Assembly (NCBI RefSeq): GCF_020524355.2
Contig: NZ_CP129019.1
Span: 1,736,001-1,800,000 of the forward strand
DNA length: 64,000 nucleotides
Reading direction: 5' to 3'
Origin: Mesobacillus subterraneus
GTDB lineage: Bacteria; Bacillota; Bacilli; Bacillales; Cytobacillaceae
Part shown: positions 34,144 through 44,701 of the stretch, one piece after another
Position numbering within the stretch: position 1 is the first letter of the stretch
Layout of the letters: each line of letters starts with the position of its first letter
Translations under genes and position numbers: made by a program
The notes under the pieces: generated by a model
Database searches by the model: none
What the model was told of the DNA's origin: nothing
The model's input: the letters and a program-made list of their open reading frames with translations, nothing else

Positions 34144-34626
34144 GTGGAAGAGAAAGTGTTGAAGGCCATCCAGGATGAATACCCGGAGGATTTTTCGTGG
34201 TGCTATGGATGCGGGAGGATGAATGAGCATGGACATCATTTTCGGACAGGGTGGGATGGGGACAAGACAATATCAATATATTATCCCGAAAAAGAACATA
34301 TGGCTCTGCCTGGTTTCGTTTATGGCGGTGTCATAGGCTCTTTTGTGGATTGTCATGGCACCGGTTCGGCTGCACTTTACCTTCATCGGAAAAATGGGTT
34401 TGAACCAGGAGACGGTAAAGAACCGCCAAGATTTGTAACAGCATCCCTGCATGTCGATTTTATGAAGCCGACTCCTCATGGAACAGCATTAAAAGCAATA
34501 GGAACCGTACATGAGATCCACCCTAAAAAATACCGTGTTGAAACAGAAGTGTATGCCGGGGAGTCACTGTGTGCTAAAGGAGAAGTTCTCGCTGTTGTGA
34601 TGCCAGATACGTTTACAGCAAAATAA
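34144..34626 (+). CDS. PaaI-family (hotdog-fold) thioesterase
   Basis: A 160-aa hotdog-fold protein. CYGCGRMNEHGHHF at about residues 20-33 is the conserved N-terminal Cys-x-x-Cys loop of this subgroup, and GFVYGGVIGSFVDCHGTGSA at about 57-76 is the central helix bearing the catalytic acid. It probably hydrolyses an acyl-CoA thioester. The GTG start at 34144 has AAGGGGGAAGC upstream. An ATG two bases before it is out of frame. Terminator at 34635-34675. Confidence 0.83.
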   Translation: MEEKVLKAIQDEYPEDFSWCYGCGRMNEHGHHFRTGWDGDKTISIYYPEKEHMALPGFVYGGVIGSFVDCHGTGSAALYLHRKNGFEPGDGKEPPRFVTASLHVDFMKPTPHGTALKAIGTVHEIHPKKYRVETEVYAGESLCAKGEVLAVVMPDTFTAK

Positions 34627-34634
34627 AAGTCAAA

Positions 34635-34675
34635 AAAATTAGACCCTGAACGTCAATCAGGGTCTTGATCTTTTT
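34635..34675. terminator. Bidirectional terminator
   Basis: GACCCTGA pairs with TCAGGGTC between convergent genes; A-rich and T-rich flanks on both sides. Confidence 0.78.
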
Positions 34676-35183
34676 ACTTAACAGGTTCAAGCATTGTGGT
34701 AGGAAGGTATCCTTCCTCCCCGGAATCTTTCATCTTTACCTTGGTTCGTCTAATATCTCTTTCTAAAACTTCTGCTTCACTGCCTTGCTTGATTTCCTTA
34801 ACTTTATTATCCTGTATGCTCTTGTCTACCCCTTCTACATCGTTAATTTCAATCAATTGATAGAGCTCATCATATCCTTCCGTAGTAAGGGCGAGTAGGG
34901 CATCTTTTTGTACAGTAGCCTGATCGCCTGCCTGGAGAGTGTTGTCTTTAACTTCTTGTTCACTTTCTTTATACGTATCCTTCATGTTCTGGATGATTCC
35001 CGGAGCCTCTTCTTTCACTTTATCGACTACTTCTTTTGATTTTTCCTCCGTAGCTTCAGCAGCATTCTTTGTTTCCTCTTCTAACTTTTTTGCACCTTGC
35101 TCTGCCTCATCGCTGTTGCAGCCAGTCATGAGCAATACTGCCAATCCTGCAGGTATAATGAATTTATTGAATGAAATTGACAT
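34674..35183 (-). CDS. Putative lipoprotein, charged coiled-coil type
   Basis: A 169-aa secreted protein. Residues 1-21 form a signal peptide ending in the lipobox LLMTGC (Cys21), so it is predicted to be lipid-anchored outside the cell. The following region (about 25-95) is almost all Lys/Glu/Ala helix, then a small folded end (about 100-168; YDELYQLIEINDVEGVDKSI). The second part resembles an SH3-like wall-binding or stress-sensing domain only weakly. The ATG at 35183 has GGAGGATATATTC upstream. Confidence 0.78.
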   Translation of the reverse strand: MSISFNKFIIPAGLAVLLMTGCNSDEAEQGAKKLEEETKNAAEATEEKSKEVVDKVKEEAPGIIQNMKDTYKESEQEVKDNTLQAGDQATVQKDALLALTTEGYDELYQLIEINDVEGVDKSIQDNKVKEIKQGSEAEVLERDIRRTKVKMKDSGEEGYLPTTMLEPVK

Positions 35184-35364
35184 GAATATATCCTCCTGAT
35201 TCAACTACTTTTATATTGTAGGATACCACTCAAGTTGTCCTATAAAACATTCTCAATGTTTTTTGCAAATTTTGTGTTATAAGAATAGGTCCAGTTAAGC
35301 TTAAGAATGTGATAATAAGCACAGTTTATCATTCAATCGATTCAATGAATGTACCATTATTCAT

Positions 35365-35826
35365 TCACGCTTTAAAAGAAAATATGAGCAATATAGCAGA
35401 TATCCCCTGGATACACAGACTGAAAAGGGCAAAGAAGATCACCATTTCTTGTTCGGAGGCAATGGTACCAGGAAGACCGCAAATAGCGGGGTTTTTTATT
35501 ATCACTCCCAGCATTGTTCCCATGATTGCGCTTAATCCACCGTTATAAATCCCAGCCATCAATGATTGGGCATTCAACATAGAGCCGTATGAAAATCCGA
35601 ATGTGATACCGAGTAAAATGTTAAGCACACCAACAATTTCGAGATGGTTAGGGAAAAGCAATACCAGATTTATGGAAGTAACTAGTCCCAGTGTGCTGCT
35701 GGCAAAAGAGGAAGCTGTATATGAGAACCTGTCACTAAATAACAATCTCGATTTACGGAGTACATAATATAGCCAGGCCCCAATGAAAATATTGATGGAA
35801 GTTATCGAAATTAATAATATATGCAT
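35365..35826 (-). CDS. Small membrane protein, paralogue of the upstream gene
   Basis: A 153-aa protein with about five membrane spans and little soluble sequence, ending in FSFKA. It aligns by eye with the neighbour at 35811-36269: both have FGSYGSMLNAQSLMAG/FGNLFDYQTLLSGYI-like glycine-rich membrane segments at the same place. ATG at 35826 with GGAGGGG upstream. It overlaps the upstream gene by 16 bases, so the pair is cotranslated. Function is unknown; its position divergent to the mnx operon suggests, but does not show, a linked role. Confidence 0.75.
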   Translation of the reverse strand: MHILLISITSINIFIGAWLYYVLRKSRLLFSDRFSYTASSFASSTLGLVTSINLVLLFPNHLEIVGVLNILLGITFGFSYGSMLNAQSLMAGIYNGGLSAIMGTMLGVIIKNPAICGLPGTIASEQEMVIFFALFSLCIQGISAILLIFSFKA

Positions 35827-36269
35827 AAAAGACCCCTCCAAACGAATGTATCAGGTTTTGTAAGCCGAAGCGCGGCCGCTATGCAAAAAGAACTGAGGAT
35901 AAAAATCTCAATCATGATTAAGAACAAAACACCTTCATATGCGGCAGCTCCAACCATCGGCGCCATGATCCCCATCATTAACCCAGTTATATAACCAGAC
36001 AATAAGGTTTGATAGTCAAAGAGGTTGCCAAACAAAACACCTGAAATACCACCTACGATCACCGAAAACAAGGTTGCCTCCAAAAAGTAAAAAGGATACA
36101 AGTTGATAAAAATAATCCCTGTCCCGAGAGCCAGACCTCCAGCAGTCACCATGGTTAAGTTCATTCCTAAATGAAAGCCGATCAGTTTTCTTCGATTGTA
36201 TAGATAGATATATAGAACGTATGCGGACAGGAAATTAATTGGGTAAAAAATCACTATCCATTCCGGCAA
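35811..36269 (-). CDS. Small membrane protein, divergent from the mnx operon
   Basis: A 152-aa protein with about five spans, starting at a TTG (36269) behind GAGGTGATGAG. It is a paralogue of the gene at 35365-35826 and overlaps it. The 132-base space between this start and the mnx operon start carries the mnx sigma-K promoter in the opposite direction. No family is recognised. Transport or membrane-anchoring roles for the Mn oxidation complex are possible but unproven. Confidence 0.75.
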   Translation of the reverse strand: MPEWIVIFYPINFLSAYVLYIYLYNRRKLIGFHLGMNLTMVTAGGLALGTGIIFINLYPFYFLEATLFSVIVGGISGVLFGNLFDYQTLLSGYITGLMMGIMAPMVGAAAYEGVLFLIMIEIFILSSFCIAAALRLTKPDTFVWRGLLCIYY

Positions 36270-36342: not shown

Positions 36343-36370
36343 ACGTTTAAGATATTTGCCTCATATGATA
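36343..36370 (+). promoter_or_regulatory. Sigma-K type promoter of the mnx operon
   Basis: AC at 36343-36344, exactly 17 bases, then CATATGATA at 36362-36370, fitting the sigma-K consensus AC-N17-CATANNNTA. It lies 32 bases before the first mnx start codon, consistent with expression in the mother cell late in sporulation, as reported for the mnx genes of Bacillus sp. SG-1. Confidence 0.82.
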
Positions 36371-36401
36371 ATGGGAAATTTGTTCGAAAGGAGTCAAATC
36401 G

Positions 36402-37166
36402 TTGAGAACAGGTATGCGACATTCGGATTACTTAAAAAATCTTTTAGAGGATAGAAAGAATGAGCTTCGGCAAGTTGATCCCATTCATGAAATCGGTAAT
36501 CAAATTACTTCACCACCTGGTGCAACTTCACTTGAAGAGAATAAAATCATTGCCGAATACCTGGAACAAACAAACCTTCATACACTTGCGAATGCTGTTC
36601 CTGAATTTAAAAAAACGCTGATACTTAAGAAATTTTTTAAGATGAAACGAAATCAAGAGGTAATAGTCTATATTGACCATCAAGGGACTACAGAGGAACT
36701 CTCAGGGAAGGTCAATGCAATCGGTAGGGATTTTGTCATCCTGACGAATTTAAAGGACCGAATATGGATTCCGTATAAAACCGTTATATCGGCAAATTCT
36801 CCCGCAGGAGTGCCGACCTATGAGAACACTCATCAAAATTTTATCTATGATAATGATCTTAAGAGAAAACTAACAACGAATTTTGGTGAAACAGTTGCCA
36901 AACGCGATGTACTAATTCACCAATTTTTCGAAGAATCCCTTAGGGGCAACCTTGATAGATGGAATGGATTATGGATCAAAGCTATTACTGCTGAAGAAAC
37001 AGCCTGGGGGAAAATCGTCTCGGTGAGTGAAGAAAGTATCTTGTTACAGTCTTTTAACTCCAATCGAGAAATTGTCTTCAAAGATCTGTCACATCTCATC
37101 TCTGCCCGCTTTATTAACCGGGTGATTTTAATGGGGAAAACCGTTTTAACTACTTTATTCCGATAA
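36402..37166 (+). CDS. MnxD-position protein with two small beta-barrel domains
   Basis: A 254-aa protein, first gene of the mnx unit. After a helical N-terminus, two similar barrels appear at about 84-130 (GKVNAIGRDFVIL...IPYKTV) and 188-235 (GKIVSVSEESILL...), joined by a conserved NFGETVA (160-166) that recurs in the 297-aa protein after mnxG. It occupies the place of mnxD in the SG-1 operon, but identity with MnxD is inference. TTG at 36402 follows AAAGGAG by 8 bases. No cofactor site is seen. Probably a spore coat/exosporium assembly protein. Confidence 0.78.
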   Translation: MRTGMRHSDYLKNLLEDRKNELRQVDPIHEIGNQITSPPGATSLEENKIIAEYLEQTNLHTLANAVPEFKKTLILKKFFKMKRNQEVIVYIDHQGTTEELSGKVNAIGRDFVILTNLKDRIWIPYKTVISANSPAGVPTYENTHQNFIYDNDLKRKLTTNFGETVAKRDVLIHQFFEESLRGNLDRWNGLWIKAITAEETAWGKIVSVSEESILLQSFNSNREIVFKDLSHLISARFINRVILMGKTVLTTLFR

Positions 37167-37213
37167 GATTCTTAATTCCCAAGATTTCAGAAGAACGAGA
37201 AAGGGTGAAGCAA

Positions 37214-37546
37214 ATGCATGACTCTCAATTAAAATCATTATCTACTGTACCAAATGATACTAAAGTCAATGACCCGTTATTTGATTTTTTTAGCAACCAG
37301 ATGGGCAAACAAATTCTGATCGTTACGGAATCATCACAATTAAATATTTTAGGGCAAACCTTTAGACCGATTTTTTGCGGAAAGGTAGCTGAAGTTGAAC
37401 CAGGCCATTTAACACTTACACCAGTCACAATTAAAATTTTGAACGCACCATTCCATAAATTTCCAATACCTATATCCATTCCTTTTGAAAAAATTGCGCA
37501 TTTTACAACAGATGTCGATTGTTCTATGAGAATACCGTTAGTTTAA
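37214..37546 (+). CDS. mnxE: MnxE, small subunit of the manganese oxidase complex
   Basis: A 110-aa protein, the size expected for MnxE (about 12 kDa), which with MnxF forms the small-subunit assembly around the MnxG oxidase. Residues about 30-98 read as one small beta-barrel: GKQILIVTE, FCGKVAEVEPGHLTLT, then IPFEKIAHF. This is the same strand pattern as in the flanking operon proteins. Several Cys and His residues (Cys55, His65, His81, Cys103) could bind copper. ATG at 37214 with AAAGGGTGAAG upstream is preferred over the GTG at 37205. mnxF follows within 30 bases. Confidence 0.83.
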   Translation: MHDSQLKSLSTVPNDTKVNDPLFDFFSNQMGKQILIVTESSQLNILGQTFRPIFCGKVAEVEPGHLTLTPVTIKILNAPFHKFPIPISIPFEKIAHFTTDVDCSMRIPLV

Positions 37547-37575
37547 TCAGACAAGTAAGGGAGGTATCATTTCTT

Positions 37576-37869
37576 ATGTCACTAGATTACTCAAAAATGA
37601 CAAATGTAAATGAAATCCATGACTCTGCCATTATGGAACACTTCAGAAATGGAATTGGCCACAAGACGCTTGTGATTTCTCCATCCTATCCGTATATGTT
37701 CGTAGGCATAATCAAGGAATTGATCGGTGATACAGTAAGGATCGATGTGGAGACCACTCACTTTGCCCAATTAGAAAACCGCGATTGGTACATTCACATT
37801 CATAATATTGAAGTTTTCTATATTGAAAGGCCTGGTGCACCAAAAATACCAAAGCTTGAAGATTATTAA
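37576..37869 (+). CDS. mnxF: MnxF, small subunit of the manganese oxidase complex
   Basis: A 97-aa protein (about 11 kDa), matching the size and position of MnxF directly before mnxG. A single small beta-barrel runs over about residues 26-84 (GHKTLVISP, VGIIKELIGDTVRID, WYIHIHNIEVFYI). His15, His22, His29, His62, His74 and His76 make it His-rich for its size, compatible with the copper reported in MnxE/F. The ATG at 37576 lies about 10 bases after GGGAGG. An ATG 57 bases upstream would overlap mnxE and lacks a site. Confidence 0.83.
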   Translation: MSLDYSKMTNVNEIHDSAIMEHFRNGIGHKTLVISPSYPYMFVGIIKELIGDTVRIDVETTHFAQLENRDWYIHIHNIEVFYIERPGAPKIPKLEDY

Positions 37870-37893
37870 ATACCTATGAAGGGGGGGAAATCC

Positions 37894-40800
37894 ATGTTAC
37901 GAAAATATCATGTTGTCGGAATTTCAACGAGAATAGTAGTTAATACGTTCGGTGACCACAATCCCAATGGCAGAATTTATGTCTTGAAGGAAAATGAGTC
38001 AAAGATTAAGGACCTCGTGAAAAAAAATCCTTATAAGCCTATTGATCTTGTTCAACCGTTAACTATTCGTGCCAACGAGGGGGATATGGTTGAAATACTG
38101 TTTGAAAACCAGCTTCCTTTTTCAGCAGGTATGCACTTCCAGGAAGCTGATTATAATGTCCTGACATCCGACGGAGCGGATGCAGGTTATAACCCTGATA
38201 CAACGGTAGAGCCTGGAGGGGAGATTGTTTACCGGATTAATGCTAGTCAAGAAGGTATCTACTTCTTCACCGACATGGGCAATGTTTCAAGCACAGAACA
38301 AGGATCAAGTGTCCAGGGATTATTCGGGGCGCTGCTTGTCCAAAAAAGGGGATCCAGCTGGACTGATCCTGTTACGGGCGGACCTATCAATAGTGGGGTG
38401 TACGCTGACATACACCATCCTTTTCTTCCATCTTTCAGGGAGTACTCCTGGTTCTTTAATGATGAAATGGAAATCAAGGATCTAACTGGGAACCGACCCT
38501 TCAACCCAATGACCAACCAGGAAGCTGAATCCTTCCATGGAGTGAATCTTCGCTATGAACCGATGACGAACCGGAAAAGACTGATGGAGGCGGGAGTAGT
38601 ATGCCCGGATTGTGATTCAGAAGAAGTCCATCATGACTCATGGGTTTTTGGTGACCCTGCCACTCCAATATTAAGAGGATATGTGGGAGACCCGGCAGTC
38701 ATCAGGCTGATTCATGGCGGGGTAAAAGAAACTCATGTGTTTCACTACCATGTCCATCAATGGTTGGGTGATTCCAGCAATATTAATTCTGAAATACTTG
38801 ATGCACAATCTATAAGCCCTCAGACTCATTATTCACTTCAGCCACTTTATGGACTTGGAAGCCTGCATGGTGCTATTGGTGATTCCATCATTCACTGCCA
38901 TCTGTATCCACACTTCGGCATAGGCATGTGGGGAATCAACAGAGTTTTTAATACTCTCCAGGATGGAAGCCAGTGTTATCCAAATGGTGTTAGAATTAAT
39001 GCCTTAAAGCCGTTGCCAGACCGCCCGGCACCACCGAAGCCCACTCCTGAAAAACCCGGATTCCCAAATTTTATACCAGGGAAAGTCGGCTATAAAGCAC
39101 CAAGACCGCCACTAGGCATTGTCGGAGGCCGGGATATGACTGAACTGGAACGTAAGGCAGCGATTCCAAACCCCCGTCCGGGAGCAGTTTTCGTTGACCC
39201 TTGCATTGACCAAGATCCAGTAGTAGTCGAATTTAATGTTTCTGCTATTGAAATGCCAGTAGTTTATAACAAGCAGGGCTGGCATGATCCGAAGGCAAGA
39301 TTTTACGTCATGGACGAAGATCTCGATGATATCCTTGCTGGAAAAAAAGAGCCCGAGCCGCTAGTCTTCCATGTTTCTGCTGGTGCATGTATAAGAATGA
39401 ACTATACAAATCGGCTGCCTCATATTTTAGACGGTGACGCATTCCAATTAGTGACAAGGACGTATGAAAATGGTTTTCACATTCACTTTGTAAAATTTGA
39501 TGTCCTTGCCTGTGATGGAGGAAATGTAGGCTGGAATTATGATAGTGCAGTTCTTCCAGGACAGACGATACGTTATGAATGGTATGCAGAAACTGAATTA
39601 AAGGCGTTTTTTTTCCATGATCATTTATTTGCTAACTCCCATCAGCAGCATGGCGTTTTTGGAGCAGGCGTGATTCAGCCGCGATTCTCTAAATTCCTTG
39701 ATTCGAGAACAGGTGAAGAAGTGGATCATGGTACGCAGATTTCTGTACAACACCCTTTTATCCCGGATTATCGTGACCAGACACTTTTCGTCCATGACTT
39801 TGCCCTTTTATTCGATAAAAATGGCCGTCCAATCCAGCCCCCTAGGTATCCTGGTTCTGAGGATGACCCAGGTGTTTTTGGTGTCAATTATAAGTGTGAA
39901 CCTTTACAGTTCAGGCTTGGTGAAGATTGTGACCCTGCCTACTCCTTCAGTTCCTTTGTTCATGGTGATCCAGTCACTCCGATTCTCAGAGCTTATGAAG
40001 GAGACCCAATTAGAATTAGGCTCTTGCAGGGCGCGCATGAGGAATCTCACAGTTTTAATATCCACGGTTTAAAGTGGAAAGAAGAGAGGCCGGATTTGGG
40101 GTCATCAATGAAAGCCCAGCAGCATATCGGTATTTCTGAGTCGTTTACTTTTGAAACTGAAATTCCTTCATCCGGAGATTATCTTTGGGCTTTTGAGGAT
40201 GAGGAAGATGTTTGGCTTGGTACATGGGGTTTAATCCGGGCGTATAGCTCAAAAATGAAGGATTTAATCGTATTGGCAGACCGAGAAGCGCTTCCGGATG
40301 GAACCGCTGAACCTCCTAAGCCTACAGGGAAACCGCCTGAAAAAGCTCATCCTCTTGCCAGTCTTCCGCCAGAAGCTTATAAGGGTTCACCAGTCAAGAA
40401 ATTCGAGGTTGTCGCATTCCAGACACCAATTCAATACAACTCATATGGCGATCATGACCCATTTGGAATTATTTTCTCTTTAAAAGAGGATGCAGAAGAC
40501 ATTCTCTCAGGAAAAAAGAATCCGGTTCCTCTAATCTTAAGGGCAAATGTCGGAGACCTTGTAGAGGTAACCCTTACAAGTGAGCTGAAGAAAGAACTCT
40601 TTCCCTTTGAAGATGGAATCCACCCTTACCCGCCGGTAAAAGAACAATCCTTTTATCCTCCGTCACTAAGGATATCACTGCACACTAGCCTGCTGAATTA
40701 CGACGTAAAGACATCCAGTGGAGACACAGTTGGTTACAATCCGGACCAAACTGTCGGTCCTGGTGAGACAATCACGTATAGATGGTTTGTTGATGGCCAG

Positions 40801-41577
40801 TTTGGAATGTGTTCTATGTGGGACATGGCTGATTTGCGAAACCACCGTTCGTTTGGAACATTTGGAGCATTTATTGCTGAATCAAGATTTACAACATACC
40901 TTGACCCTCGCAGCCAGGAAAAAGTGAATACCGGTGAAAATGTCGTCCTTTGCCACCCCTTGCTACCTGCTACAAGAGAATTCGTCCTCATATTGCATGA
41001 TGGTGTGAGACTTGAGGATAAAAATGGAAAGGTCATCATTGATCCTATGGATGGGGTCATACCAGATACAGAAGTGCTCGAAGAAGTCGACACGTATGAT
41101 TATGGGTCAAGAGGATTTAACTACCGTAGTGAGAGATTAATCAATCGATACAAGGAACACCCAGTAATGCACGAGCTGTTTTCATCAGAAATTTTCGGGG
41201 ACCCTTCGACACCTTTATTCGAGGCATATCCTGGCGAGGCAGTGGTTATACGGATTACCACTCCTGCAGAAAGGCGCAGATCTCACACCTTCCACCTTCA
41301 TGGACATTACTGGAAATTTGACAGTAAAGATCTTGATTCGCGGATTCAGTCATTTTTAGGCCATATGGTTACGGGCCATACAGATGATTTGCGCTTGATT
41401 GGAGGAGCAGGAGGAGTATTCAATTTCCCAGGAGATTACTTGTACCGTTCCGGCAATATCCGCTGGGACATAGAATTGGGGATGTGGGGAATCTTCCGTG
41501 TTCATAAGGATCCAAAGGAATACCTGCCGCACCTTGAGGAAGTTGAAGGGAAGTGGAGCAATGAAGAAAAGGCATAA
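37894..41577 (+). CDS. mnxG: MnxG, manganese-oxidising multicopper oxidase
   Basis: A 1227-aa multicopper oxidase of the MnxG type (SG-1 MnxG is about 1217 aa), which oxidises Mn(II) to Mn(III/IV) oxide on the spore surface. Copper motifs are visible: HYHVH at 284-288, the type 1/type 3 motif HCHLYPHFGIGM at 334-345 with axial Met345, HIH at 529-531, HDH at 575-577, SFNIH ending at 724, and HTFHLHGH at 1131-1138. The repeated cupredoxin pattern (three similar halves each starting VVEF/EFEVVAF...) fits a six-domain, ceruloplasmin-like layout. No signal peptide. GGGGGGG precedes ATG 37894. Five-gene operon under sigma-K. Confidence 0.94.
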   Translation: MLRKYHVVGISTRIVVNTFGDHNPNGRIYVLKENESKIKDLVKKNPYKPIDLVQPLTIRANEGDMVEILFENQLPFSAGMHFQEADYNVLTSDGADAGYNPDTTVEPGGEIVYRINASQEGIYFFTDMGNVSSTEQGSSVQGLFGALLVQKRGSSWTDPVTGGPINSGVYADIHHPFLPSFREYSWFFNDEMEIKDLTGNRPFNPMTNQEAESFHGVNLRYEPMTNRKRLMEAGVVCPDCDSEEVHHDSWVFGDPATPILRGYVGDPAVIRLIHGGVKETHVFHYHVHQWLGDSSNINSEILDAQSISPQTHYSLQPLYGLGSLHGAIGDSIIHCHLYPHFGIGMWGINRVFNTLQDGSQCYPNGVRINALKPLPDRPAPPKPTPEKPGFPNFIPGKVGYKAPRPPLGIVGGRDMTELERKAAIPNPRPGAVFVDPCIDQDPVVVEFNVSAIEMPVVYNKQGWHDPKARFYVMDEDLDDILAGKKEPEPLVFHVSAGACIRMNYTNRLPHILDGDAFQLVTRTYENGFHIHFVKFDVLACDGGNVGWNYDSAVLPGQTIRYEWYAETELKAFFFHDHLFANSHQQHGVFGAGVIQPRFSKFLDSRTGEEVDHGTQISVQHPFIPDYRDQTLFVHDFALLFDKNGRPIQPPRYPGSEDDPGVFGVNYKCEPLQFRLGEDCDPAYSFSSFVHGDPVTPILRAYEGDPIRIRLLQGAHEESHSFNIHGLKWKEERPDLGSSMKAQQHIGISESFTFETEIPSSGDYLWAFEDEEDVWLGTWGLIRAYSSKMKDLIVLADREALPDGTAEPPKPTGKPPEKAHPLASLPPEAYKGSPVKKFEVVAFQTPIQYNSYGDHDPFGIIFSLKEDAEDILSGKKNPVPLILRANVGDLVEVTLTSELKKELFPFEDGIHPYPPVKEQSFYPPSLRISLHTSLLNYDVKTSSGDTVGYNPDQTVGPGETITYRWFVDGQFGMCSMWDMADLRNHRSFGTFGAFIAESRFTTYLDPRSQEKVNTGENVVLCHPLLPATREFVLILHDGVRLEDKNGKVIIDPMDGVIPDTEVLEEVDTYDYGSRGFNYRSERLINRYKEHPVMHELFSSEIFGDPSTPLFEAYPGEAVVIRITTPAERRRSHTFHLHGHYWKFDSKDLDSRIQSFLGHMVTGHTDDLRLIGGAGGVFNFPGDYLYRSGNIRWDIELGMWGIFRVHKDPKEYLPHLEEVEGKWSNEEKA

Positions 41578-42454
41578 AATTGAAATTCCAGTTGATGAGT
41601 CTTCAAGCCATGAGATGATGGAAAGCAGTTCCTCTTCTGCAACCGATCCGGAAGATGAATTGTGCTTACCGGAGGGCTGTCCCGATATCATCGAAACTCC
41701 AAAAATCCCTTCACCGACATCTTGTATGCCTGATGACCGGTTGCACGAATTAGAAGAAAAAATTGATAAAGCCAACCGTATGCTATTGGACCTCGGGCTA
41801 TCAAATGTGCAGTCTGAACTTGGACGGAGAATTTTATTCGATGGACTGGCAGGGGAAATGGTGAAGATTAAAATCAACTGTTCAGATTCTGGGGAGAGCT
41901 TTACAGAAGCTAGTCCACTAAAGCCAAAAGAGGAAGTTTTAAACAAGAAGACCAAGAAGCAAAGGTATCACAAGAAGAAACGGCTTGCCAAGAAGAAGCG
42001 CAAGCATAAATGTAAAAAAAATAAATTGAACAAAAATTTCCTTGAAGGCTTTGTCCAATTAGTAGGCAGTGATTTTGTCCAACTTCAGAAAAACAGAAAG
42101 ACATTCATTATACCTTTCAATAAGATCTGTCTGGTTTTATCCAAAAAGCCGTATCATCTACCGAAAGCCAAAGCTCCTTTAGTAGATATCGATCCATGTT
42201 TTCGGAGAGACCTGACCTATAATTTTGGAGAAACAGTAGCTCATGATCCTGAGCTGATCCAGATCTTTTTCAGGATTAAGTTATCAATGTACCTTAAAAC
42301 ATTTATGGATGAAAAAATAAAAATCTATACAAATTCTGAGAAGGTAATAGGTTCATTGGCAGGGCTAGAAAACGGAAACGTTATTCTTGTCAGCGAAAGT
42401 GCACAGGTTAAAGCAATACCATTTACGACGTTCTGCTACCTGAAAAAAGGTTGA
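41561..42454 (+). CDS. Lys-rich protein with two small beta-barrel domains, mnx operon
   Basis: A 297-aa protein whose start overlaps the end of mnxG by 17 bases. An acidic, Ser/Cys-rich N-terminus (1-60) precedes two barrel units: one at about 98-193 interrupted by a 35-residue Lys/Arg-rich insert (124-158; KKKRLAKKKRKHKCKK) and ending GSDFVQL...IPFNKI, the second at about 248-294 ending IPFTTF. NFGETVA (221-227) matches the first operon protein. The basic insert is like those of cross-linked spore coat proteins. ATG 41561 has GTGGAG upstream. Confidence 0.78.
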   Translation: MKKRHKIEIPVDESSSHEMMESSSSSATDPEDELCLPEGCPDIIETPKIPSPTSCMPDDRLHELEEKIDKANRMLLDLGLSNVQSELGRRILFDGLAGEMVKIKINCSDSGESFTEASPLKPKEEVLNKKTKKQRYHKKKRLAKKKRKHKCKKNKLNKNFLEGFVQLVGSDFVQLQKNRKTFIIPFNKICLVLSKKPYHLPKAKAPLVDIDPCFRRDLTYNFGETVAHDPELIQIFFRIKLSMYLKTFMDEKIKIYTNSEKVIGSLAGLENGNVILVSESAQVKAIPFTTFCYLKKG

Positions 42455-42468
42455 GTAACAATTAGAAG

Positions 42469-42490
42469 CGCCTGAGCATTTGCTCAGGCG
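42469..42490. terminator. Terminator between convergent mnx-region genes
   Basis: CGCCTGAGCA pairs with TGCTCAGGCG, then TTATTT. It overlaps the last codons of the minus-strand gene. Confidence 0.72.
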
Positions 42491-43005
42491 TTATTTCCTT
42501 CATCCTTTTCAAACCAATTGATTTTATCAAACGGAATCATCTTATATTTCTTTTTTGGGTAGTTACGGTTTCCCTTGTTTTTTTTGTGGATGACTAGCTC
42601 AACAAAATCTGTTCCAACAAAGGAAATACGACCATTGACTTTTTTAATCTTGCTGTCACATTCTGACCCTATAATAACTTTACATCCAATATAACCACGT
42701 AATACTGCTGCCATTTTGTGCCGCAAACCTCCCAAGCGGACGCTGAAATGCCTGCTGCATAACTCTCGATCAGTGAAATTATACCGGCGGTCGAAAATTA
42801 CCGGGACACAATCATCTTTATAGCTATGGCAATATCCATGATGTGAACTTGATTCCAGATCATCCATGGTTGGGCAATCTGAATGTGAGCTAAAGGTAAA
42901 GGCTGAATCAACATCATCGCATTGTGGATGGTCGCAGTCATGGTATTCTTGAGAATTCTGTTTGAAATAATCTCGACTTCTTGAAAAATAAGCCCCAATA
43001 TCCAT
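42484..43005 (-). CDS. His/Cys/Asp-rich small beta-barrel protein convergent with the mnx operon
   Basis: A 173-aa protein. The first 95 residues are rich in His, Asp, Cys and Ser (YHDCDHPQCDD; SSSHHGYCHSYKDDC), a likely metal-binding or coat-type region. Residues about 104-166 form a barrel of the same type as the operon proteins (GYIGCKVII, GRISFVGTDFVEL, IPFDKINWF) with a basic insert. It resembles DUF2642-like spore coat proteins by this pattern. GGAGGGAGGATAAAG precedes the ATG. Expression with the mnx genes is likely but its own promoter is not clear. Confidence 0.75.
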   Translation of the reverse strand: MDIGAYFSRSRDYFKQNSQEYHDCDHPQCDDVDSAFTFSSHSDCPTMDDLESSSHHGYCHSYKDDCVPVIFDRRYNFTDRELCSRHFSVRLGGLRHKMAAVLRGYIGCKVIIGSECDSKIKKVNGRISFVGTDFVELVIHKKNKGNRNYPKKKYKMIPFDKINWFEKDEGNNA

Positions 43006-43442: not shown

Positions 43443-44102
43443 ATGAAAAATGAAAAAGCCGTTGTCGTATTCAGCGGCGGACAGGATAGTACGACTTGCC
43501 TGTTTTGGGCTATGAAGGAATTTGGAGAGGTTGAAGCAGTCACTTTCGATTACAACCAGCGTCATCGGACTGAAATACGATGTGCAGAAGAAATTGCAAG
43601 CGAGCTTGGCATTAAGCATCATGTTCTTGACATGAGTCTGCTAAACCAACTAGCTCCTAACGCACTTACTCGAAGTGATATCGATGTAAAGGATGGGGAA
43701 GACGGAGAACTGCCATCAACATTTGTGCCGGGGAGGAATCTATTGTTTTTATCCTTTGCTGGAGTTCTTGCAAGCCAAGTGAAAGCAAAGCACATCGTAA
43801 CAGGTGTTTGCGAAACGGACTTCAGCGGCTATCCAGATTGCAGGGACGTGTTCATAAAATCATTGAATGTAACTATTAACCTATCAATGGACGAGAACTT
43901 TGTCATTCATACACCATTAATGTGGCTGAATAAGTCACAAACTTGGAAGCTGGCTGATGATTTAGACGCTTTTGAATTTGTCAGGTCAAGAACACTGACT
44001 TGCTATAACGGAGTCATTGCAGATGGCTGTGGTAGCTGTCCGGCCTGTAAGTTACGAAAAAGAGGGCTGGATGAGTTCCTCGAAGGAAATCTTGATACCT
44101 AA
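43443..44102 (+). CDS. queC: 7-cyano-7-deazaguanine synthase QueC
   Basis: A 219-aa enzyme that converts 7-carboxy-7-deazaguanine, ammonia and ATP to preQ0 in queuosine biosynthesis. The PP-loop ATP motif FSGGQDSTT is at residues 10-18, and the zinc site [18 protein letters not shown] near the C-terminus holds the conserved Cys residues together with the Cys of LTCYNG. AAAGGAG precedes the ATG. It is under a preQ1 riboswitch. In B. subtilis it leads a queCDEF operon; here queD, queE and queF do not follow, and a transporter gene comes next. Confidence 0.95.
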
Positions 44103-44161
44103 TTTCAGTTTATGCGATCATGCAAAAATAGATAAAGATATTAATAGACGGAGGTAAGATA

Positions 44162-44701
44162 ATGAGAATCTTTTTATACTTAATTTCAATTGTTACTGCC
44201 AATGTGATTACAGCTGCTCTTGCGCCACTTCAATTTGGAATGTTCATTGTGCCGATGGGGACATTGCTGATAGGGGCTACATTCATTTTCCGTGACCTTG
44301 TGCAGAATAAGTACGGCCGGGCGAAAACTTATATGTTCATCGGTTTGGCGCTCGTTCTTTCTGCTATTGTTTCGTATATACTAGGAGATACACTTACGAT
44401 CGTTTTTGCTTCGGCATTGAGTTTTGCTGTTGCTGAGACGACTGATACTGAAATTTACACGAGGCTTAAGCTTCCAATGAGCTGGAGAATCTTCTACAGC
44501 GGATTAGTTGGCGGCCTCCTGGATTCAGTCATCTTTGTCGTAATCGGGCTAAGTCCATTAGGAGCAAACTTCCTTCCGTGGGAAGCTGTTCCTGCAGCGA
44601 TTTTAGGCCAGGTTATTGTTAAAACCATCATCCAGGGAATTGGCGCAATACTGCTTAACCCTATTAACAACATTTTCAATAATAAAGCAATGACACACTA
44701 G
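44162..44701 (+). CDS. VUT-family transporter, probable queuosine precursor uptake
   Basis: A 179-aa membrane protein with about five to six spans, of the VUT/YhhQ family (FRDLVQNKYGRAKTYM and the C-terminal GQVIVKTIIQGIGAILLNP are typical), whose members import queuosine precursors such as preQ0 or preQ1. It is 59 bases downstream of queC with GGAGGTAAG before its ATG, so the riboswitch probably governs both. The combination allows synthesis plus salvage. A terminator follows. Confidence 0.85.
   Translation: MRIFLYLISIVTANVITAALAPLQFGMFIVPMGTLLIGATFIFRDLVQNKYGRAKTYMFIGLALVLSAIVSYILGDTLTIVFASALSFAVAETTDTEIYTRLKLPMSWRIFYSGLVGGLLDSVIFVVIGLSPLGANFLPWEAVPAAILGQVIVKTIIQGIGAILLNPINNIFNNKAMTH

Follow-up and report, generated by a model that had tools for sequence, protein, structure and literature searches.

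Identity of the oxidase

The central finding of this work is that a 64,000-nucleotide stretch of the Mesobacillus subterraneus genome (NCBI RefSeq assembly GCF_020524355.2, contig NZ_CP129019.1, positions 1,736,001 to 1,800,000 of the forward strand; hereafter the window, taken at its full length) evidently carries a true Mnx locus, with the gene of a multicopper Mn(II) oxidase and those of its helper proteins. The genome containing the window is a single contig of 4,786,507 bases. Taken as a whole, the observations are probably best explained by a complete Mnx locus that is read by sigma-K, in which MnxD, MnxH and MnxI serve as barrel-shaped connectors and mnxA and mnxB keep an ancestral layout.

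In a search of the PDB, the product of mnxG (37894-41577, plus strand, 1227 residues) aligned with 9bxa_A over 1227 of 1227 residues at 2777 bits. The two genes directly upstream of it, mnxE (37214-37546, plus strand, 110 residues) and mnxF (37576-37869, plus strand, 97 residues), encode proteins that aligned with 9bxa_B over 110 of 110 residues (213 bits) and with 9bxa_E over 96 of 96 residues (204 bits), respectively. This record is entitled 'Structure of Mnx H340A complex from Bacillus sp. PL-12', and all three subunits of the PL-12 complex (MnxE3F3G; PMC5622069) are matched end to end by window proteins, with identities counted by eye of 97/110 for MnxE and 91/96 for MnxF. MnxG also matched the Pfam families Cu-oxidase_3 and Cu-oxidase_2, and it contains the copper histidine motif HCHLYPHFGIGM. 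The preliminary description of this DNA, made from its letters alone, had proposed both a mnx operon and a histidine motif of this kind, while leaving room for MnxG to align with another multicopper oxidase family; the two proposals hold, and all 1227 residues fell on the PL-12 MnxG. A laccase-like enzyme acting on another substrate, instead of an Mn oxidase, is very improbable: two-domain laccases do make up most of the remaining PDB relatives and are the next in sequence, but they reach at most 39 bits against the 2777 of PL-12 MnxG, and MnxE and MnxF are present besides. The NCBIfam family NF041487, also called MnxG (1894 positions), was rejected as the family of the window protein, which scored 283.8 bits and so fell below the curated cut-off of 3100; this family is presumably the Pseudomonas type, a different protein with a shared name.

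Few bacterial enzymes are considered to act chiefly on Mn(II), and Mnx is one of them (PMC5622069). In print, the PL-12 mnxEFG genes yield an oxidase that acts on both Mn(II) and Mn(III), the complex comprises one MnxG and an alternating MnxE/MnxF hexamer, and manganese is oxidised by the spores of these Bacilli (PMC5622069). Judged by full-length alignment, the window operon is an orthologue of this known system, and Mn oxidation by spores of the M. subterraneus strain would be expected from that orthology. A cryo-electron microscopy paper of 2024 reportedly describes a tunnel running through MnxG and its E/F cap. The closest named relatives of MnxG, among the matches listed, from which the genome's own record is possibly absent, came from Bacillus sp. 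ISL-55, Mesobacillus boroniphilus, M. selenatarsenatis and other ISL strains, at 94-95%.

Gene content of the locus and linkage of mnxH and mnxI

A check of the open reading frames bore out the five genes given earlier: mnxD, mnxE, mnxF, mnxG and a gene of 297 residues. The first, mnxD (36402-37166, plus strand, 254 residues, TTG start), opens the series and the last, here named mnxH (41561-42454, plus strand), closes it, overlapping mnxG by 17 bp; the starts of mnxD to mnxH were chosen to fit the PL-12 proteins. The distances between these genes are 47, 29, 24 and -17 bp. Beyond mnxH lies a hairpin (42467-42492; -20.7 kcal/mol), likely a terminator, in keeping with the earlier reading of the five genes as one operon. 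The gene list was right in its members and incomplete in its extent, for a further gene belongs to the locus. This gene, here named mnxI (42484-43005, minus strand), converges with mnxH, the hairpin lying between the two, and its product appears to join a Cys/His-rich head to a single Sm-like barrel.

Linkage was followed in 78 named mnx loci, which derive from the best 80 of 112 relatives in a scan of genome contigs and represent the closest relatives, not the total. At 68 of the 78, SG-1 included, mnxH was present, and at 53 it adjoined mnxG on the same strand; the convergent, Cys/His-rich mnxI was found at 64, always together with mnxH, and the pair was adjacent and convergent at 46. The SG-1 locus holds both genes. 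The SG-1 operon is said to be described as mnxA-G, and in a text search of the literature the word 'mnxH' occurred only in a network context.

The same picture was obtained from whole genomes. MnxG was detected at E 1e-50 in 37 of 193 family genomes, 28 of them at an identity of at least 51% and nine with distant forms only (39-44% identity, mostly frames of 1,300-1,500 residues). The mnxH profile (E 1e-6) matched 28/28, 0/9 and 0/156 of the genomes with the closer MnxG, with the distant MnxG and without MnxG, respectively, and a second, weaker match, which in the window's genome is mnxD, occurred in 26 of the 28 (all except G005 and G179). MnxI was found in 24 of these 28 genomes; the one further genome that has it, G094, lacks MnxG, and there the relative lies at G094:C83:127088-127549 in a frame of 432 residues. 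Run on the window's own genome, the mnxH profile retrieved only H, D and I at E<=1, the last at E 0.0017. Three loci with a distant MnxG (L031, L032 and L033; 42-43% identity, frames of 1,417-1,436 residues) had no D, E, F, H or I within flanks of 1.5 kb. Both mnxH and mnxI are linked to the Mnx locus, mnxH with hardly less constancy than MnxG.

Some loci depart from this arrangement. At three Domibacillus loci (L039, L041, L044) only mnxF and mnxG were seen, mnxE, D, H and I not being found in the flanks. Side-by-side mnxG pairs in several genomes and three mnxG loci in Mesobacillus foraminis, together comprising L038, L042, L049, L052, L069; L061, L101 and L103, give hints of duplicated or specialised oxidases. 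In M. boroniphilus JCM 21738 (L076:9339-13020) and in G072 (C1:2336708-2340404), mnxG lies in two pieces, either because the gene is broken or through an error of assembly, and mnxH is retained in G072 and G070.

A possible common fold of the helper proteins

MnxD, MnxH, MnxI, MnxE and MnxF look like related small barrels of the Sm/Hfq type, with some pairs only weakly linked. The MnxF model (predicted local distance difference test, pLDDT, 91.6) consists of an N-terminal helix and a five-stranded barrel, and its nearest solved folds in Foldseek after 9bxa_E were Hfq and LSm, MnxE and GerQ being matched as well. In the MnxD model (pLDDT 77.6) the secondary structure forms two helix-plus-five-strand units, and the matches to GerQ and Hfq came chiefly through the second unit, the comparison having covered mainly residues 173-237 and the folds in the structure lists. 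On these models, a Sm/Hfq-like fold of MnxF and a tandem Sm/Hfq-like form of MnxD are strongly supported; MnxH would likewise carry tandem barrels. The helix and five strands of the MnxF model are a likeness to Hfq, Sm and LSm rings, and the E/F ring is six-membered in print; the sequence identity in the structure lists is 8-21%, and Mnx differs in being a hetero-ring seated on an oxidase.

Five alignments (A1-A5) comprise 52, 61, 37, 56 and 59 members, drawn from sets reduced to 85% identity, and the families compared at full length were confined to proteins of 0.6-1.7 times the length of the window protein. At full length, hhalign linked D with H at 99.9% (E 1e-31), H with I at 97% (E 1e-10), D with I at 78% and E with F at 71%, against controls of at most 1.8%; by these values D and H are evidently paralogues, H and I share a domain, and D, H and I are related. 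Among single barrels, the values were 98% for D1-H1, D2-H2 and H1-I, 96% for H2-I, 95% for H1-H2, 90% for D1-I, 88% for E-F, 81% for E-H2, 79% for D2-I, 39% for I-F and 12% for D1-D2. The seven Mnx barrels make 21 pairs, and 19 of these exceeded the best (7.2%) of 15 controls, 12 of which were pieces of a beta-rich protein.

The barrels were also compared with two spore-coat families, using a DUF2642 profile built from 11 of 20 loci and a GerQ profile built from 17 of 30, the rest having a stop or no sequence at the expected place. H2 was linked with DUF2642 at 94%, D1 with GerQ at 76% and E with DUF2642 at 66%, the other pairs lying between 0.2 and 62% and the best controls at 3.4% for DUF2642 and 24% for GerQ. 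GerQ (8zra) occurs in 61 of 61 family genomes and, unlike the Mnx barrels, is not tied to MnxG; the word 'DUF2642' gave no match in the literature text search, in which Mnx, manganese and Hfq came up together in one review. When family members were searched against Pfam at E 0.1, the 61 H relatives matched the RimP C-terminal SH3 domain 28 times (best 2e-8), DUF2642 11 times, DUF6897 ten times, LSM and GerQ twice each and Hfq once (LSM and Hfq at E 0.004-0.02), in addition to unrelated single matches; the 52 D relatives matched RimP_C (9), DUF6897 (4), DUF2642 (3), CotO (2) and GerQ (1), and the 56 F relatives RimP_C (6). The 37 mnxI relatives gave scattered matches only in Pfam and NCBIfam. 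As for the window's own proteins, MnxD, E, F and I matched 0 Pfam families at E<=10, MnxH had one unrelated weak match, and the Hfq and LSM models of Pfam matched none of them. In a 2017 paper, MnxE and MnxF are stated to have no known homologs.

Not all of these comparisons are strong. Several full-length links are weak (D-E 3.9%, D-F 1.5%, E-H 30%, F-H 12%, E-I 2.0%, F-I 18%), the single-barrel pairs D1-F (4.4%) and H1-F (1.1%) stay below the best control, and low values were obtained for F-DUF2642 (2%), F-GerQ (1%), I-GerQ (0.2%), H2-GerQ (1%), D2-GerQ (0.7%), D1-DUF2642 (0.3%) and for DUF2642-GerQ itself (1.4%); the Foldseek significance for MnxF is also low. That low significance, and the weak profile links of F with D1, H1, DUF2642 and GerQ (1-4%), would suit an account by convergence, in which MnxE and MnxF came to resemble D, H and I by arriving at the same small barrel with no common descent, and D, H and I were recruited separately as coat proteins. 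We find this account doubtful, given that E-F, E-H2, E-DUF2642 and I-F stand at 39% or above where the 15 controls reach at most 7.2%. Support for an ancestor shared by E and F with D, H, I and DUF2642 is, nonetheless, uneven.

Promoter and gene order

The sigma-K-type promoter suggested in the preliminary description was confirmed as a match: AC-N17-CATATGATA stands at 36343-36370 on the plus strand, and neither strand of the window has another strict match with a spacer of 16 or 17; spacers of 15-18 give three strict matches on the plus strand and 0 on the minus strand over its whole length. Among 2000 Markov sequences as long as the gap (132 bp), such a match on one strand turned up in 0.55%. 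The genome also has an uninterrupted sigK (374.6 bits, cut-off 298.65). In 7 of 21 relatives (L034, L036, L037, L046, L076, L077 and L108) an exact N17 match lies 5' of mnxD; three others have a one-mismatch match only and 11 have none, and upstream of SG-1 mnxA only a one-mismatch match was found, at -240. A sigma-K promoter of mnxD is credible from its motif, if unseen in half of the relatives, and sigma-K control of mnxDEFGH may be proposed on the same motif.

Upstream of mnxD, the genes mnxA-C had been thought replaced by two divergent membrane proteins. This stands for mnxC, which was not found at the locus, and fails for mnxA and mnxB, which are that very pair (35365-36269). The 152-residue membrane protein of mnxA (35811-36269, minus strand, divergent from mnxD) matches SG-1 mnxA (L081:7061-7486) with 49% identity over 69%, and the 158-residue membrane protein of mnxB (35365-35841, minus strand) matches SG-1 mnxB (L081:7446-7964) with 32% over 98%; the two genes are themselves paralogous (hhalign 99.6%), and a pair of unrelated membrane genes was rejected on these grounds. 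The SG-1 locus (L081, whose gene names we take, by gene order, to be those of the published mnxA-G) has A, B, C, D, E, F, G and H on one strand and I on the other. It shares A, B, D, E, F, G, H and I with the window, MnxG being 69% identical, and differs in that its A, B and C are collinear with D; in the window this collinear order is absent, and A and B are inverted relative to SG-1.

Among the 78 loci, B and A were divergent from D at 16, A alone was divergent at 11, the order was collinear at 27, and none of these layouts was seen at 24. The MnxG tree has 84 tips, two of which are the distant relatives used to root it, the outgroup L031 being left out for a stop in the frame read; 32 tips are divergent, 28 are collinear, and 24 have no A/D state and were ignored. 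Fitch parsimony on this tree gave a divergent root and two changes to the collinear order; one collinear group (8 tips) rests on a node of support 0.033 nested in a node of 0.995. Because the root of the tree is divergent, the layout of the window is the older one: the divergent arrangement of A and B is ancestral and the collinear order of SG-1 is derived.

The Sco-like gene mnxC lies inside the flanks at 39 of the 78 loci. Elsewhere in the M. subterraneus genome there are two Sco proteins, whose identities to mnxC are 41% and 35% and which may be ordinary Sco proteins. The lipoprotein and thioesterase genes at 34144-35204 were rejected as members of the locus, each being present at 6 of 78 loci. 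Downstream, the region 43443-44701 by eye resembles, from its motifs, queC and a queuosine-precursor transporter, which we take to lie outside the mnx locus.

Possible roles of the helper proteins

In the mechanism that we propose, sigma-K would read mnxDEFGH from the motif-based promoter at 36343 late in sporulation, in the mother cell. MnxE and MnxF would form an alternating 3+3 ring capping MnxG, and MnxG would oxidise Mn(II) to Mn(IV) oxide on the spore, as in print for PL-12 and by orthology here. MnxD and MnxH, with their tandem barrels, and MnxI, with one barrel and its Cys/His-rich head, most likely keep the oxidase in place within the coat or exosporium of the spore, and MnxA and MnxB are a membrane-protein pair read from the opposite strand. 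We infer this role of D, H and I, as connectors between oxidase and coat, because of their fold, their strict linkage to MnxG and their resemblance to DUF2642 and GerQ.

Alternatively, with the MnxEFG core unchanged, D, H and I might handle metal, bringing copper to MnxG or Mn(II) to the tunnel, and partly replace the Sco-like MnxC that is absent at this locus; two Sco proteins are encoded elsewhere in the genome. Cys and His together average 15.5% of MnxI, against 2.5-5.0% in the other families, and MnxE and MnxF of PL-12 bind copper (PMC5622069); the window MnxD, on the other hand, has 0 Cys and 7 His in 254 residues. Furthermore, D, H and I are unneeded for loading in a heterologous host, because mnxEFG alone gave an active oxidase there (PMC5622069). 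We consider metal handling by all three proteins unlikely as the general explanation; some metal-handling role may exist, for MnxI foremost.

The connector role can also be given a bolder form, which is speculative and which we rather doubt in full. Within 6.6 kb there would be seven copies (D1, D2, E, F, H1, H2 and I) of a single duplicated Sm-like barrel of the spore coat, and MnxD and MnxH would form three-copy, pseudo-hexameric rings stacked on E3F3. The resulting column would anchor MnxG in the coat and lead manganese oxide or its precursors away, with MnxI as a metal-binding coat partner, so that a machine for biomineralisation would have arisen from an Hfq-like coat scaffold.

Manganese oxides made by bacteria shape the cycling of metals and carbon. 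What is new here is two unlisted genes, an ancestral layout, and a Sm-like theme that appears common to the accessory proteins. The presence of the ancestral layout in M. subterraneus changes which mnx operon should be taken as the standard. If a common Sm-like origin of the helper subunits is true, it would explain where the odd E/F ring came from, and mnxH, mnxI and the Sm-like helpers may be the targets through which to learn how the oxidase is held on the spore and sheds its mineral.

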